DNA from: Balneolaceae bacterium
Lineage (GTDB): Bacteria; Bacteroidota; Rhodothermia; Balneolales; Balneolaceae
Assembly (NCBI GenBank): GCA_020832285.1
Contig: JAFIFB010000028.1
Location: 1 to 64,000 of the forward strand
Length of the DNA: 64,000 nucleotides
Direction of reading: 5' to 3'
The position numbers and the translations under genes are program-made. This document shows, piece by piece, positions 4,964 to 14,930 of this stretch. The notes below the pieces were generated by a model. The model saw only the letters and a program-made list of their open reading frames with translations, had not been told where the DNA came from and made no database searches. The stretch's first letter is position 1, and every line of letters starts with the position of its first letter.

Positions 4964-5893
4964 ATGTGTGTACGTTTTCTGGTATTTTTAATATCGGCAA
5001 TTCTGCTATATGGCTGTGGTGATCCTGAGTTAGGCCGGGCTCCCGCTCCGGAAATGTATAAGGAAGTGGTTGAAAGCTGGAATCAAGACCGGATTGAAAG
5101 CCTCAAAGAACCCGACGGATGGCTTCGACTGATGGGAGTGTTCTGGCTTGAAGAAGGAGAAAACAGGTTTGGCAGTGGTGAAGAAAACGATTTGATCTTC
5201 CCGGAAGGAACTATACCGGAATATGCAGGGACCATTATTTATCAGAATGGTCAGGTAGTTATGAACACAGCCGATAATGTGCCAGTTACACACGATGGTG
5301 AACCGGTTTCAGAAATTATGCTGTATGATGGTTCAGACGCACCCCGCGCAGAGTACGGTTCTCTTGAATGGTTTGTTATTGTTCGGGGTGATATGACAGG
5401 CATCCGCCTTTATGATAAAGAGAACGCCCGGGCCGATGCATTTGATGGTTTTCCCGCTTATCCGGTAGATCCCGAATATAGACGGGAGGCCCGATTTATT
5501 CCCAATCCCGAAGAAACCACAATTTCCATTGTAAATGTACTGGGCCAGCAGATAGATGCACCATCACCTGGTGTGATTGAATTTACTATTGAGGAGGAAA
5601 CTTTTACACTGGACGCACTGGAAGGGGGTGAGAGATTGTTTATTATCGTGGGGGATGAAACCAACAGAACCGAAACTTATCAGGCCGGACGGTACATTTA
5701 CATCGATTATCCTGAAGAGGACAGCGACTATACAGTGATCGACTTCAACAAGATGTACAATCCACCCTGTTCTTTCAACATGTTTACCACCTGCCAGCTT
5801 CCGCCGCTCCGAAACCGGCTGGATGTGGCGATCCCCGCTGGCGAGAAACGCCCAGTTGATTGGGTGGGACTTGATATAACTCCAAATGGATGA
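4964..5893 (+). CDS. DUF1684 lipoprotein, first of tandem pair
   Basis: A 309-residue exported lipoprotein. A signal peptide (MCVRFLVFLISAILLYGCG) ends in a lipobox with the lipidated cysteine at residue 18. The rest is one DUF1684 domain: W-x-x-D-R near 40, GWLRLMGVFWLEEGENRFGS at about 52-71, a DAFDGFPAYPVDP block near 160, and the family's C-terminal FNKMYNPPCSFNMFTTCQLP and IPAGEKRPVDW blocks. The biochemical function of DUF1684 is not established. The downstream gene encodes a close paralogue and overlaps it by 8 bases, so the two are almost certainly co-transcribed. The preceding 273 bases hold no gene and should contain the promoter. Confidence 0.88.
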   Translation: MCVRFLVFLISAILLYGCGDPELGRAPAPEMYKEVVESWNQDRIESLKEPDGWLRLMGVFWLEEGENRFGSGEENDLIFPEGTIPEYAGTIIYQNGQVVMNTADNVPVTHDGEPVSEIMLYDGSDAPRAEYGSLEWFVIVRGDMTGIRLYDKENARADAFDGFPAYPVDPEYRREARFIPNPEETTISIVNVLGQQIDAPSPGVIEFTIEEETFTLDALEGGERLFIIVGDETNRTETYQAGRYIYIDYPEEDSDYTVIDFNKMYNPPCSFNMFTTCQLPPLRNRLDVAIPAGEKRPVDWVGLDITPNG

Positions 5894-6818
5894 ACGTCCC
5901 ATGAGAAGATTTTCTTTGAAATCTCTGATTCTTTTTGCCGCTCTATTCCTGTTGAATGGTTGTGCAGACGATAAGTTAGGCCCTGCGCCTGTACCTGATA
6001 ATTATCTGGAATCTATTGAAGAATGGAAGCAATACAGGATTGATGTGCTTAGCGGGCCAACCAACTGGCTTCGTCTCGACGGTATCTATTGGATAGATGA
6101 GGGAGAAAACAGCTTTGGAAGCGGAGAAGATCAGGACTTGCAATTTCCTGAAGGAACCATTCCGGGGCATGCTGGTGTGGTGATCCTGAAGGAAAATATC
6201 ATTACCATGAAAGTAGCTGATGGGGTTACCATCACTCATGAAGGAGTGCCGGTGGAGGAGATGGTTCTGTTTGATGGAGAAAACCGGCCGAATGTAGAAC
6301 ATGCGGATCTGGAATGGTTTATCGACACGAGAGGAGGTCGCCACGGTATCCGCCTATATAACAAAAACAACTCCAAGGCCGATGCATTTGATGGTTTCCC
6401 GGCCTATTCCGTTGATCCGGATTGGCACCTGAAAGCCTTTTTTGTTCCCCATTCTGACAGTATAGCTGTCACCCTCGACAACGTTATAGGTGAAGAAATA
6501 GAGCGGTTCTCTCCCGGAACGATCGAGTTTGAGGCAGGCGGTGAACGACAGAATGTATTGGCTTTTGAGGCATCTTCAGGACTGTTTATCATGTTCTCAG
6601 ATGAAACCAACAAAACCGAAACCTATTACGCCGGCCGCTACATGATCATCCCATTTCCAGATGATAAAAATAAAACCATCATCGATTTTAACAAAGCCTA
6701 CAACCCGCCTTGTGCATTCAGCAGATATACCACTTGTCAACTCCCCCCGCCTCAAAATCGTCTGAATGTGTCAATTCCCGCCGGCGAAAAACGTCCGGTT
6801 GATTGGGAAGGGATTTGA
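5886..6818 (+). CDS. DUF1684 lipoprotein, second of tandem pair
   Basis: A 310-residue paralogue of the preceding gene with the same block order: GPTNWLRLDGIYWIDEGENS, KADAFDGFPAYSVDP, FNKAYNPPCAFSRYTTCQLP and IPAGEKRPVDW. The lipobox is LLNGC. The ATG at 5886 overlaps the upstream stop region. The in-frame ATG at 5901 (MRRFSLKSLILFAALFLLNG) gives a cleaner signal peptide and has GGATGA a few bases upstream, so it may be the true start. The pair is a tandem duplication that has diverged while keeping every conserved block, implying that both copies are functional. Function unknown. Confidence 0.87.
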   Translation: MDERPMRRFSLKSLILFAALFLLNGCADDKLGPAPVPDNYLESIEEWKQYRIDVLSGPTNWLRLDGIYWIDEGENSFGSGEDQDLQFPEGTIPGHAGVVILKENIITMKVADGVTITHEGVPVEEMVLFDGENRPNVEHADLEWFIDTRGGRHGIRLYNKNNSKADAFDGFPAYSVDPDWHLKAFFVPHSDSIAVTLDNVIGEEIERFSPGTIEFEAGGERQNVLAFEASSGLFIMFSDETNKTETYYAGRYMIIPFPDDKNKTIIDFNKAYNPPCAFSRYTTCQLPPPQNRLNVSIPAGEKRPVDWEGI

Positions 6819-6828
6819 AAAATTGTAC

Positions 6829-6847
6829 CTCGGGTCGCTGACCCGAG
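6829..6847. repeat. Short palindromic hairpin (CGCTG loop), copy 1
   Basis: CTCGGGT-CGCTG-ACCCGAG forms a perfect 7-bp stem. It lies just after the second DUF1684 gene but lacks a following T-run, so it does not look like a simple terminator. It shares its loop and the trailing GACAGGGT with the hairpin at 6976-6992, where the stem bases differ in a paired way. Confidence 0.7.
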
Positions 6848-6947
6848 AAGACAGGGTTTGGGACAAGTTGGAAATTTGGTTGAGGGATCTCTTTCTTGGA
6901 GTTGGTGCAGTTTAGGGTTGGCTGCTTTTTAGGGGTTTTGATTCCTT

Positions 6948-6992
6948 CCGGCTCGGCGAGCCGGGCTACAGTAGCTCGGCTCGCTGAGCCGA
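6948..6992. repeat. Two adjacent palindromic hairpins
   Basis: CCGGCTC-GGC-GAGCCGG (6948-6964) is followed by TCGGCT-CGCTG-AGCCGA (6976-6992), then GACAGGGTAGG, which recalls the context of copy 1. These are REP-like intergenic palindromes in the 290-bp gap before the convergent gene at 7109. No coding potential is seen in the gap. Confidence 0.65.
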
Positions 6993-7108
6993 CAGGGTAG
7001 GTTTTGATTAGGATAGTGGAGTACTCATTCCCATACTAAAGAAATATCCATTTTTTGAAAAAGCCAGAATATTTCTATTAAAACTGATTTTCTAAGAAAA
7101 AATAAGTT

Positions 7109-7879
7109 TTATAAGCCTTCCTCAACAAGAACACTACAGCAAGTCAGTCCTGCCTCCGCTTTAGCTAATTCGGACTGGTCGATAAGGATCAGGTTATATC
7201 CGAGATCGTCCAGTTTTTTTGCGGTGTGCGGAAATGCTTCGGGACATAGCGCAAAAGAGTTTCGGCGCATTACATTTGCTCCGCAGGGTTCGTCGGGATG
7301 AACGTGAACAAATTGGCAGCCGGGAAAGAGCTTTTCATCCATCCACTCAGGATTAATAAGCAGCAGATCATCTTCCAGAATAGCGATGGCCGTTTTAAGG
7401 TGAAGACAACCGGTTACAGGAACTTCCTGAACGCTGTAGCCAAATGGGTCAAGATGTTCCCGGAACTGCCGGATTCCTTCTTTATTGGTTCGGGTGGATT
7501 GTCCGATATATACTTTTTTACCAAGAATCAAAACATCGCCTCCGTCAATAGTACCGGGTGATTCGATAAACCGGAGTTCCCTGTACTCCTTCAGTACATC
7601 TGCCATTGTATTGGTTTCTTCTCTGCGGGAGGCTGCACCGGGACGGGTGATGATGCCCAGTTCTGAAAAAACAACTGCGGTATCTTCCACGAAAACACCA
7701 TCAGGAAGGTGAGGAGTTTCAGGCAGGCGGCGAATAGTATAGCCCATTTTGTGAAGAGCATCTTCGTAGCGCTGGTGCTGTATAGCCGCTTTGTGAATGT
7801 CGATGGGTGATCGATCCATGTGAGTCAGTTCACAATCTGTAAGAAGAGGGCTTACGGCACGGGTTAAAGCTGTGGGCAT
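7109..7879 (-). CDS. Dimethylarginine dimethylaminohydrolase (DDAH)-like hydrolase
   Basis: A 256-residue cytoplasmic enzyme of the amidinotransferase/pentein fold. Family blocks are TRAVSPLLTDCELTHMDRSP at 6-25, LPDGVFVEDTAVV at 58-70, GTIDGGDVL at 109-117, the catalytic histidine in GCLHLKT (H160) and the C-terminal nucleophile in GLTCCSV (C247, with C248 beside it). The double cysteine matches DDAH enzymes, which hydrolyse Nω-methylated arginine to citrulline and methylamines. Length is typical. A second, distantly related hydrolase of this fold lies at 14034-14930. The substrate cannot be decided from sequence; methylarginine is the family expectation. Confidence 0.87.
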   Translation of the reverse strand: MPTALTRAVSPLLTDCELTHMDRSPIDIHKAAIQHQRYEDALHKMGYTIRRLPETPHLPDGVFVEDTAVVFSELGIITRPGAASRREETNTMADVLKEYRELRFIESPGTIDGGDVLILGKKVYIGQSTRTNKEGIRQFREHLDPFGYSVQEVPVTGCLHLKTAIAILEDDLLLINPEWMDEKLFPGCQFVHVHPDEPCGANVMRRNSFALCPEAFPHTAKKLDDLGYNLILIDQSELAKAEAGLTCCSVLVEEGL

Positions 7880-8965: not shown

Positions 8966-9500
8966 ATGAAGCCATTTTACATCTTTCTCCTTTCCTTATT
9001 TTATATAACATTTTCTAATTCTTGTGCAGAGTCTTCGGCGGACAACGGCCCGGAAACCCCTGAAGAAGACACTGCGATAGAAAAAGAGTGGCAATTGGTT
9101 TGGTCGGACGAGTTTGACAGTGAAAGTCTTGATGCCGATCTATGGAGCTTTCAGTTTGGAACCGGAAACCATTCACGGAACTGTACACTACGGGCCTGAC
9201 TGGCCGGAAAATCAGCACACTGGTGAATCTTACTCACTGGAAGAAGCAACCTTTTCTGATGATTTTCACATCTATTCTATTGAGTGGGAGCAGAATGAAA
9301 TTCGCTGGTTTGTGAATGGAGAGCTGTATTTCAAAGTGACACCCTCCGATCTTCAGCCCCACAACTATCCGTTTAATGCCCGTTTTCACCTTATTTTGAA
9401 CCTGGCGGTGGGCGGTAATTGGCCCGGCAGCCCCGATGGTACCACGGATTTTCCCCAATCATTCTTGATAGATTACGTGCGGGTCTATCAATACAAGTAA
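8966..9500 (+). pseudogene. GH16 laminarinase-like glycoside hydrolase, internally deleted
   Basis: Remnant of a secreted family 16 beta-glucanase. The first frame (8966-9199) has a lipoprotein-type signal (FSNSCAES) and the GH16 N-terminal strand, WQLVWSDEFDSESLDADLWS then FQFGTG. From about 9165 homology continues in another frame, ending at 9500, with IHGTVHYGPDW, HIYSIEWEQNEIRWFVNG and LILNLAVGGNWPG then a C-terminal FLIDYVRVYQYK. In intact GH16 enzymes these parts are separated by about 100 residues, including the catalytic E-x-D-x-(x)-E motif just before the HGTVHYG strand. That part is missing and the frame is shifted, so the product cannot be active. It is a deletion remnant, or less likely an assembly error. 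Confidence 0.88.
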
Positions 9501-9501
9501 C

Positions 9502-10293
9502 TCAGCGATCGGAAGCAGTTTTCACCAGTTCCCTGAAAATTCGCCGCTGTCTTTTGATCTGAATCATATACTCCGGGTGCCACTGGACACCAATAGCAAA
9601 AGTGTATCCGGGATGCTCCATACCCTGGACAATCTCCGTATCCAGCTCTTTTGCCACAAGCTGTACACCTTCTCCCGTTTTGTCAATCGCCTGATTGTGA
9701 AGGGCATTTACATTGCAAATATCGGTTTGAAGGATCGATTGAAGTTTAGATCCGTCCCTGATCGTAATTCGTTTTTTTGGGAAAATAGTGGCGATTTGCG
9801 GCTGCTCCACGTAATAACCGCTAATGTCCTGGTGAAGATTTCCCTGGAAGTGCACATTCATGAGCTGCATTCCGCGGCAAATGCCGAGAACCGGTTTATT
9901 AAAGGCGAGAGCATCGTGAAGAAGGGTAAGTTCCAGTTTGTCCCTTTCCGTATCGATGGGGGCACTTTTAGTGTGCCGGAAATATCGGGCAATCCAGTAA
10001 ACCGGGAAAAAGAGAATCGATAGTACCCATTCAAAAATGGTTCGTTTGTCTTTGGTAAGTTTTGTTTTTTCAATCCGTTCCTGCCCATATTTTTTGGGTT
10101 CTACATCGGCACCACCGCCCAGAATCAGGCCGTCCAGGCCAGACATCTCAAAAGGGTGATTTGGGGTGACTCGTTTGGGGATACCACCAGCCAGACGCAC
10201 CGAAAGTGCCGTGAAAAACCAGGCGGCACCTCCGCCTTCATCCGGTCCGGTTACACCAATTACAGGCTTTTTTTTACTACGCATTCTCCTCAA
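9502..10293 (-). CDS. Class I glutamine amidotransferase-like / gamma-glutamyl hydrolase (peptidase C26)
   Basis: A 263-residue PuuD-like enzyme that would cleave gamma-glutamyl amide bonds. The nucleophile elbow GICRGMQ places C139, and QWHPE gives H239 and E241. LILGGGADVEPKKYG (57-71) is the C26 N-terminal signature. Residues about 85-110 (RTIFEWVLSILFFPVYWIAR then YFRHTKSAP) form an unusually hydrophobic, aromatic insertion flanked by basic residues. It might be a membrane-touching helix. The gene overlaps the upstream amidoligase gene by 17 bases, so the two are translated from one mRNA. This pairing suggests the hydrolase trims or recycles what the ligase makes. Confidence 0.88.
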   Translation of the reverse strand: MRRMRSKKKPVIGVTGPDEGGGAAWFFTALSVRLAGGIPKRVTPNHPFEMSGLDGLILGGGADVEPKKYGQERIEKTKLTKDKRTIFEWVLSILFFPVYWIARYFRHTKSAPIDTERDKLELTLLHDALAFNKPVLGICRGMQLMNVHFQGNLHQDISGYYVEQPQIATIFPKKRITIRDGSKLQSILQTDICNVNALHNQAIDKTGEGVQLVAKELDTEIVQGMEHPGYTFAIGVQWHPEYMIQIKRQRRIFRELVKTASDR

Positions 10294-11281
10294 TTCTGCG
10301 GTTCATAAGTTCAATCCATTTTCTCTTAAAACCGATCAGCGTCTCCTTCTCCATTTTCAGCCAGGCCCGGGAATATTGGTTCAGTGCGCTTTTATCGGAG
10401 GCGAGCTCTTCCACCAAAACCCATCGATTCCATTCAGCAGCAAGGGTCCAGTTTTCATCTTCGAGCGAGCAGTTTGGCAGCCGGTAATGGAAGGTAGGGC
10501 GGGAGGATGTGAGGCCCTCTTCAATAAGAGATACGGTGAACTCTTCTTCCAGGTGCATGAACAAGGGAAGCATATCAAGCGGACGGTTACGTGAATTTTT
10601 GTATGAAAAATAGTCAGTGATCAACTGTTTGAGATCCGGCTGATAGTCCGGGTTTAAAATCAGGCGGATATATTCATCCTCATACGGGTTGATATAGGGT
10701 GTTATTCTGCGGCTGATGTCGATATCGGCAGCTTCACGGATCCATGGATCAAGCATAACGTATGCACGGAGATGATTGAGAAGGCTTTCTGTCCGTTCGG
10801 ATGGAATTTCGGGATTGAGGTGAAGACCAAAAGCGTAGATGAACGAGCTCCCGGTTCCCCTGGCTTTTTCATTTCGCAGGTGACTAACGAGACTGTTAAG
10901 GCGGTACATTTCCGGAACAGGAATCGGTGGAGTCACAATTTCAAAAGGAACTACTGTGGATGCTACGCCCAAAAGCGAATCTTCAATCTTCTCTTTATCT
11001 TTGAATCTGGGTAGATCGACACCCACAGCACCGAGTAATTTTTCATACTTTTTCTCGCGCAGTAGCTGTGCATCCAGTTCCAGTGTGAAAGTGCCAAATT
11101 TTGTGTCGTTTACCTCATATTCAAATGTGGTAATTTTCTGGACATCTCCGCCATAAAGCTCTTTTACAATAGCTGCAACCCGGGCCATGTCAATACCTGT
11201 AAATTCAAATTCATAGCCAACTCTTCGTATATCACCATGAATATTTTGGAGAACAGGAGGATGTTTAAATTTCTCTGACAT
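10277..11281 (-). CDS. Putative amidoligase (COOH-NH2 ligase of the glutamine-synthetase-like fold)
   Basis: A 334-residue protein matching the putative amidoligase family (Amidoligase_2 type). The N-terminal RRVGYEFEFTGIDMARVAAI carries the characteristic G-x-E-x-E/F-E metal/ATP-binding strand. It is followed by GTFTLELDAQLL (second acidic strand) and VPFEIVTPPIP. A conserved FIYAFGLHLNPEIP strand lies near 164-177. Known family members are predicted from comparative genomics to form amide or isopeptide bonds using ATP; substrates are mostly unknown. It is first in a two-gene minus-strand operon with the overlapping C26 amidohydrolase. No carrier peptide gene is visible next to it. Confidence 0.82.
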   Translation of the reverse strand: MSEKFKHPPVLQNIHGDIRRVGYEFEFTGIDMARVAAIVKELYGGDVQKITTFEYEVNDTKFGTFTLELDAQLLREKKYEKLLGAVGVDLPRFKDKEKIEDSLLGVASTVVPFEIVTPPIPVPEMYRLNSLVSHLRNEKARGTGSSFIYAFGLHLNPEIPSERTESLLNHLRAYVMLDPWIREAADIDISRRITPYINPYEDEYIRLILNPDYQPDLKQLITDYFSYKNSRNRPLDMLPLFMHLEEEFTVSLIEEGLTSSRPTFHYRLPNCSLEDENWTLAAEWNRWVLVEELASDKSALNQYSRAWLKMEKETLIGFKRKWIELMNRRIEENA

Positions 11282-14033: not shown

Positions 14034-14930
14034 TTACCAAAACATCAGTTTCATGCAAAAGACACTGCCGCCGCTTTTCAGATATTCACGGGTACTGTAT
14101 TCGTAAACGATAAATCCGGCATCGCGCAGTTTTTTGTTTACATTAGTACAGCCCTGCTGAATCAGGACATTTTTTCCGTCGGGACAGGTGGCGTTCACGG
14201 CAAAAAGTTTCTCAGCCTCATATAGGTTTGCTGTGATTACGTTATCAAAAAGTTTGTGAATTAATTCCAGGCCGGTATCAGTGAAGGCACCGGGATAGAT
14301 GAGTACTGACTGTTCGCTGAGCATGCACATACAGGTGTCGAGGTGGTAAAATTTTTCATCCACCAGTTCGAGGGCGATCACGGGCGTATTAAAAAGTTGT
14401 GAAATCTGCTCATACGCATTTTGAGATGTTCGGAATCCATAGGCACCCCAGATCAGTTTTCGTTTAAAGTGCCAGAGTGCATCACCCATTCCTTCAAATG
14501 TTTGGGTTTTTCCGGGATCCAGACGAAGTGTTTCGTAGCCTTGTTTCTGATACCATTTTTCGATAACTGGCACCTCACCTTTGCGTTGTGATGCATGCAT
14601 GATGCCCATCAGGGCTTTTTTATTTCCTTGTTCATCGACAAAGGGCAGGCTTTGGTTGGCACAGAAAACCATATCGGGCAGGCCTTTTTCTCCTTCAAGA
14701 GTGTGTATGTTCAGGCCCAATTCCGAAAACCCGTCTCTGAGTAATTCCCATTCATGATCGGCCCGGACCTTATCCACTCCGCCAATATGCCCATGCATGT
14801 GCGGGTTGATGATATATTCTACATCAAAAAATGTAGGTTTTACCATCAAAACGTTTGCGGGGACAGGCATAGAGGGTATATCAGAAACAGAGAAGTCGAC
14901 CTGATCGGCAGATGTATAGATTTTTGTCAT
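14034..14930 (-). CDS. Amidinotransferase-fold hydrolase (arginine deiminase/CtlX-related)
   Basis: A 298-residue cytoplasmic protein of the pentein superfamily, distinct from the DDAH-like protein at 7109. VLMVKPTFFDVEYIINPHM (27-45) and GLPDMVFCANQSLP (83-96) are characteristic of the clade annotated as arginine-deiminase-related, dimethylargininase or citrulline hydrolase (CtlX). Catalytic candidates are GMGD (147-150), H196 in FYHLDTCMCML and C292 in SGGSVFCM. The C-terminal nucleophile is present, so an active hydrolase is expected. Whether it acts on arginine, citrulline or methylarginine cannot be told. The gene is monocistronic, divergent from the DUF58 gene. Confidence 0.82.
   Translation of the reverse strand: MTKIYTSADQVDFSVSDIPSMPVPANVLMVKPTFFDVEYIINPHMHGHIGGVDKVRADHEWELLRDGFSELGLNIHTLEGEKGLPDMVFCANQSLPFVDEQGNKKALMGIMHASQRKGEVPVIEKWYQKQGYETLRLDPGKTQTFEGMGDALWHFKRKLIWGAYGFRTSQNAYEQISQLFNTPVIALELVDEKFYHLDTCMCMLSEQSVLIYPGAFTDTGLELIHKLFDNVITANLYEAEKLFAVNATCPDGKNVLIQQGCTNVNKKLRDAGFIVYEYSTREYLKSGGSVFCMKLMFW

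Follow-up and report, generated by a model that had tools for sequence, protein, structure and literature searches.

The amidoligase locus

The window, a stretch of 64,000 nucleotides of Balneolaceae bacterium DNA (contig JAFIFB010000028.1), carries on its minus strand a gene for a PF12224 amidoligase, followed by an overlapping gene for a Peptidase C26 family protein. The features of the pair are as follows.

10277..11281, minus strand: PF12224 amidoligase (carboxylate-amine ligase, predicted glutamine synthetase fold), 334 aa; from Pfam and an AF2 model (Z about 12 with glutamine synthetase, GS)
11204..11218, minus strand: GhExE signature of the ligase (G22-Y-E24-F-E26), the expected Mg2+/ATP site of carboxylate-amine ligases; from the homologue alignment
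9502..10284, minus strand: Peptidase C26 (PuuD/SpuA-like), predicted hydrolase, 260 aa from the likelier ATG start; from Pfam, the starts of relatives and an AF2 model
9502..10293, minus strand: the same reading frame from an alternative TTG start, 263 aa
10277..10293, minus strand: stretch shared by both reading frames, 17 nt long from the TTG start and 8 nt from the ATG start; from the ORFs and the starts of relatives
9949..10083, minus strand: family-specific insertion in the C26 protein, about residues 68-112 (260-aa numbering); from alignment and AF2
9976..10041, minus strand: hydrophobic core of the insertion, residues 82-103, modelled as a kinked helix (83-91 and 93-103); AF2
9877..9879, minus strand: Cys136 of GICRG, predicted to be catalytic, invariant across 49 aligned C26 proteins
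9571..9579, minus strand: predicted catalytic His236 and Glu238 in QWHPE, invariant in the same number of aligned C26 proteins

An earlier note had placed a ligase and a C26 reading frame at these sites, and both are borne out, on the minus strand, by the ORF check and by Pfam. It also described an overlap of 17 bases. This is correct for the TTG start at 10293; however, the ATG at 10284 is the likelier start, because most close homologues of the C26 partner begin at ATG and overlap the ligase by 8 to 14 nt, and the overlap here is then 8 nt. Some homologues have small gaps between the two genes instead. Promoter-like and terminator-like sites around the pair show no excess over shuffled sequences.

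The surrounding genes are varied. In the window, the nearest gene upstream of the amidoligase encodes a DUF481 protein. A penicillin amidase gene lies upstream of the amidoligase in the related locus L047 (2527-4965, plus strand), about 30 nt ahead of it, with similar genes in L048, L050, L052, L053 and L059; the family (PF01804) was tested in L047. Two arginine-deiminase/DDAH-family genes (7109-7879 and 14034-14930, minus strand) flank the pair within about 3 kb, one on each side; relatives of the second also occur close to the pair in other Balneolaceae. A GH16 reading frame at 9114-9500 (plus strand) matches just positions 97-167 of the PF00722 profile and looks broken; the plus-strand translation of 9000-9500 contains stops. 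In the relative L053, a 288-aa GH16 gene (6787-7653, minus strand) adjoins the pair. The neighbouring reading frames 4964-5893 and 5886-6818 (plus strand) are apparent tandem copies of one lipoprotein; the former matches DUF1684 (PF07920).

Conservation of the pair

PF12224 is found in 37 of the 59 nearest relatives, and in all 30 relative loci that were fetched a same-strand C26 gene lies directly downstream of the ligase. Across the class (218 genomes), PF12224 is present in 64 genomes. The partner-type C26 is present in the same 64 and in none of the other 154, and the coordinates place ligase and partner next to each other in every one of the 64. The partner-C26 profile matches these genomes at E 4.5e-68 or better; the next genome reaches E 3.0e-41, in a match confined to the C-terminal part.

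The 80 best-scoring named loci, a set biased toward the query, come from Balneolota, Bacteroidota, Pseudomonadota, Campylobacterota, Thermodesulfobacteriota, Acidobacteriota, Nitrospinaceae and others. A same-strand C26 gene follows the ligase in 74 of them, within 75 nt in 73 cases and at 643 nt in L122. At the remaining six (L063, L075, L100, L107, L111 and L113) the ligase stands alone, which means that hydrolysis is not a constant requirement. In an evenly drawn sample of Gammaproteobacteria, 20 of 323 genomes contain PF12224, at 21 loci; C26 is adjacent at 17 of these, with 5 long and 12 short forms (see below; the loop was judged by reading). Two longer PF12224 frames, of 532 and 1056 aa, also occur in Gammaproteobacteria. 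The earlier note had held that a pair not conserved outside this genome would speak against its reading; the pair is conserved well beyond it.

The two proteins share their history: distances in the ligase and C26 trees correlate with r 0.73, and the maximum reached in permutations is 0.18. These figures, for trees and co-occurrence alike, are drawn from genomes that are related and not from independent events. No fusion of ligase and C26 was seen in the class, where frames around full-length PF12224 matches are 328-389 aa. No conserved third gene is recognisable beside the pair across phyla, just lineage-specific neighbours such as the penicillin amidase of some Balneolaceae and an 877-aa protein in Wenzhouxiangella. 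Some neighbour clusters were rejected as third genes; they had the look of ORFs shadowing a gene in antisense, or of widespread domains (parts of response regulators and diguanylate cyclases).

The amidoligase

The ligase matches PF12224 (Amidoligase_2) with E 1.2e-65 and 222.2 bits (cut-off 22). The GhExE signature is that defined for carboxylate-amine/ammonia ligases (PMC2588565). Its G22, E24 and E26 are invariant in 43 homologues, and GxExE is found in 71 of 72 paired ligase homologues; the remaining one, L055, is truncated. The AF2 model has pLDDT 87.4 and pTM 0.87, and its best 50 VIA-align rows are all glutamine synthetases (Z 11.3-12.5, rmsd 3.1-4.2, 189-221 aligned residues). Foldseek alone is weak (E 1.3e-2), and a PDB sequence search with the ligase returned nothing at E 1. 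Comparison by hhalign with GS and GCS2 of the same genomes, using small profiles built from relatives, is not significant (E 0.13-0.44); for this reason the chemistry is assigned from the fold, the signature and published work. By its signature and its modelled GS fold, the protein is placed in the carboxylate-amine/ammonia ligase superfamily.

The C26 partner

The partner matches PF07722 (Peptidase_C26) with E 2.1e-44 and 152.3 bits (cut-off 20.5). Its best NCBIfam match is PuuD (PRK11366), at 52.9 bits; this is far under the cut-off of 266, and the protein is therefore described as PuuD-like and not as PuuD. The nucleophile motif GICRG (GxCRG) and QWHPE are found in all 72 paired C26 proteins, and VNxxHxQ in 68. 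The AF2 model (pLDDT 87.9, pTM 0.84) is closest to lin1909, PuuD and SpuA, with Z 26-29; amidotransferase domains reach Z of about 22 at most.

The C26 frames of G048, G051, G053 and G112 are longer, at 333-369 aa, and their profile match is broken near position 215. This suggests that these predicted proteins have a further insertion close to the C terminus.

The hydrophobic insertion

The earlier note had pointed to a hydrophobic insertion at about residues 85-110 of the C26 protein. The insertion is real and slightly longer, at about residues 68-112 with a core at about 82-103. The core in the window protein reads TIFEWVLSILFFPVYWIARYFR. The extra length is about 33 residues: from Y66 to R114 inclusive there are 49 residues in the window protein, 46-58 in long-form relatives and 15-16 in short-form relatives. 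The long form, a grouping made here, is defined by at least 46 residues over this interval together with a hydrophobic core, and the window protein belongs to it.

Among 72 complete pairs, 53 have a long-form and 19 a short-form C26. Long forms occur in Balneolota, Gammaproteobacteria, Thermodesulfobacteriota and others. Absence from orthologues had been named as grounds for discarding the insertion; it is kept in these 53 pairs and in all 30 of the first-fetched relatives. As all 30 have both the adjacent partner and the insertion, the latter is not a chance feature. Three changes of the long/short label suffice to explain its distribution on the ligase tree, where shuffles need about 17, and 2 suffice on a C26 tree made without the insert columns. 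Since the label changes just two or three times on the gene trees, the insertion is an old trait passed down with the pair.

The core of the insertion is very hydrophobic and rich in aromatic residues, with basic flanks. The best 19 residues in the window protein have a Wimley-White octanol sum of about -10 kcal/mol, and a hydrophobic-Pro-then-Arg motif is kept within the insertion of 47 of the 53 long forms. AF2 confidence is middling here (mean pLDDT 61, 79, 74 and 58 for 10-residue blocks over residues 71-110). An insertion so abnormal is probably associated with the membrane, judging from its composition and the model. Its position within the catalytic domain leads us to expect a monotopic or re-entrant element, one that goes into the membrane and comes out again on one side. 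Membrane tethering of this kind is not essential to the module, because 19 of the 72 partners are without the insertion.

Related systems

The ligase family that Iyer et al. described in 2008 is presumably the one now called PF12224. The pair had been put forward in the earlier note as a candidate for an undescribed system; however, the pairing of amidoligase and hydrolase was already described in that study (PMC2588565), with the same kind of ligase and the same kind of adjacent partner gene as here. The passages of that paper drawn on here name proteobacteria and firmicutes, not Balneolota, and mention no hydrophobic insertion in the partner. What may be new relative to the 2008 pairing is the old, conserved hydrophobic insertion in the C26 proteins of this branch. 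A literature search found no study joining 'amidoligase' with 'gamma-glutamyl-gamma-aminobutyrate hydrolase', and no substrate for this kind of amidoligase and partner.

PuuA/PuuD of E. coli and SpuA of P. aeruginosa likewise combine a gamma-glutamyl ligase with a C26 hydrolase, and the C26 folds are alike (Z 26-28). However, the Puu pathway has further enzymes between the ligation and hydrolysis steps (PMC9397018), whereas no genes for intermediate steps are conserved with the pair here, and the ligase is of another family. In the membrane-inserted Pup ligases of planctomycetes and deltaproteobacteria, too, ligation relies on a GS fold and a membrane insertion interrupts a catalytic domain. 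As described in PMC2588565, these have four TM segments in the ligase itself and conjugate Pup; here a single kinked helix is predicted, it is in the hydrolase partner, and no Pup is known. Phage PF12224 clusters (UFV-P2 and OM43 phages) have an amidoligase and an amidotransferase in the same genome, nearby in UFV-P2, but that amidotransferase is GATase_6 (PF13522) rather than C26. A link to vesicle production was rejected; it concerns an inactive transglutaminase and not the PF12224 family.

Proposed function

We propose a reversible gamma-glutamylation module, in which an amine is ligated and the product hydrolysed, with the long-form hydrolase held at the membrane by its insertion; we rate the chances of this proposal as about even. 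The GS-fold amidoligase would activate a carboxylate at the expense of ATP and join it to the amine of an acceptor; the likeliest carboxylate is the one at the gamma position of glutamate. The C26 partner, a predicted Cys-His-Glu hydrolase of the PuuD/SpuA type, would cut the gamma-glutamyl amide again. In the long form, the kinked hydrophobic helix, inserted shortly after GGGAD, would hold this enzyme at the cytoplasmic face of the membrane; if so, either the acceptor or some partner protein is probably located there too. It counts against the proposal that a ligase and a hydrolase undoing its work, encoded in one operon, make a futile cycle unless the two are regulated or spatially separated.

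That ligase and gamma-glutamyl-type hydrolase form a unit, as the earlier note had it, is supported by the strict pairing and the family matches. The strongest argument for the gamma-glutamyl part of the proposal comes from a second partner. In firmicutes, according to the published neighbourhoods on which this argument rests, the ligase family adjoins a gene for gamma-glutamyl cyclotransferase (PMC2588565). C26 and the cyclotransferase are unrelated, and share only their action on gamma-glutamyl amides.

The same gene arrangement might instead encode a glutamine-dependent amidotransferase complex, with the C26 protein as a glutaminase passing ammonia to the amidoligase for amidation of a substrate carboxylate (compare CTP synthase and MurT-GatD). 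Co-occurrence in 64 of 64 genomes and overlapping genes would suit two subunits of one enzyme, and C26 has the class I amidotransferase fold. However, within that fold the partner is nearer to the PuuD/SpuA hydrolases than to amidotransferase domains, PuuD is its best NCBIfam match and its nucleophile motif is GxCRG without exception. Six loci have the ligase alone, and the cyclotransferase that is the partner in the firmicute relatives (PMC2588565) is no ammonia supplier; we consider such a complex unlikely. It is similarly doubtful that the pair makes and processes small-peptide or cell-wall amides, with a hydrolase that trims or remodels what the ligase has made and does not simply undo the ligation. 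Iyer et al. proposed glutathione-like or peptide secondary metabolites from gene neighbourhoods (PMC2588565), and the penicillin amidase gene upstream of the pair in several Balneolaceae fits this; but that gene does not adjoin the pair in this window, and the pair has no third gene conserved with it across phyla.

The insertion could also serve, on a soluble enzyme, to dock the amidoligase or to cover the substrate as a lid. This is compatible with any of the chemistries above, and we consider it less likely than not. The insertion lies shortly after GGGAD, which by comparison with the family should place it near the mouth of the active site, and the ligase and C26 share an evolutionary history. 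A core so hydrophobic and so rich in aromatic residues, flanked by basic ones, would, however, be unusual on a soluble surface. The main proposal could be taken further, to a membrane-tethered cycle of gamma-glutamylation and deglutamylation whose target is an amine in the membrane, carried by an aminolipid or by a membrane protein: a reversible glutamate tag of the inner membrane, with a patchy distribution across several phyla. This extension is speculative and quite improbable.

Because the pairing is strict, and because each of the two alternative partners acts on gamma-glutamyl amides, the gamma-glutamyl reading can be tested directly. The hydrolase is of a kind that is normally soluble, and its conserved membrane-type insertion narrows down where to look for the substrate, namely at the membrane.
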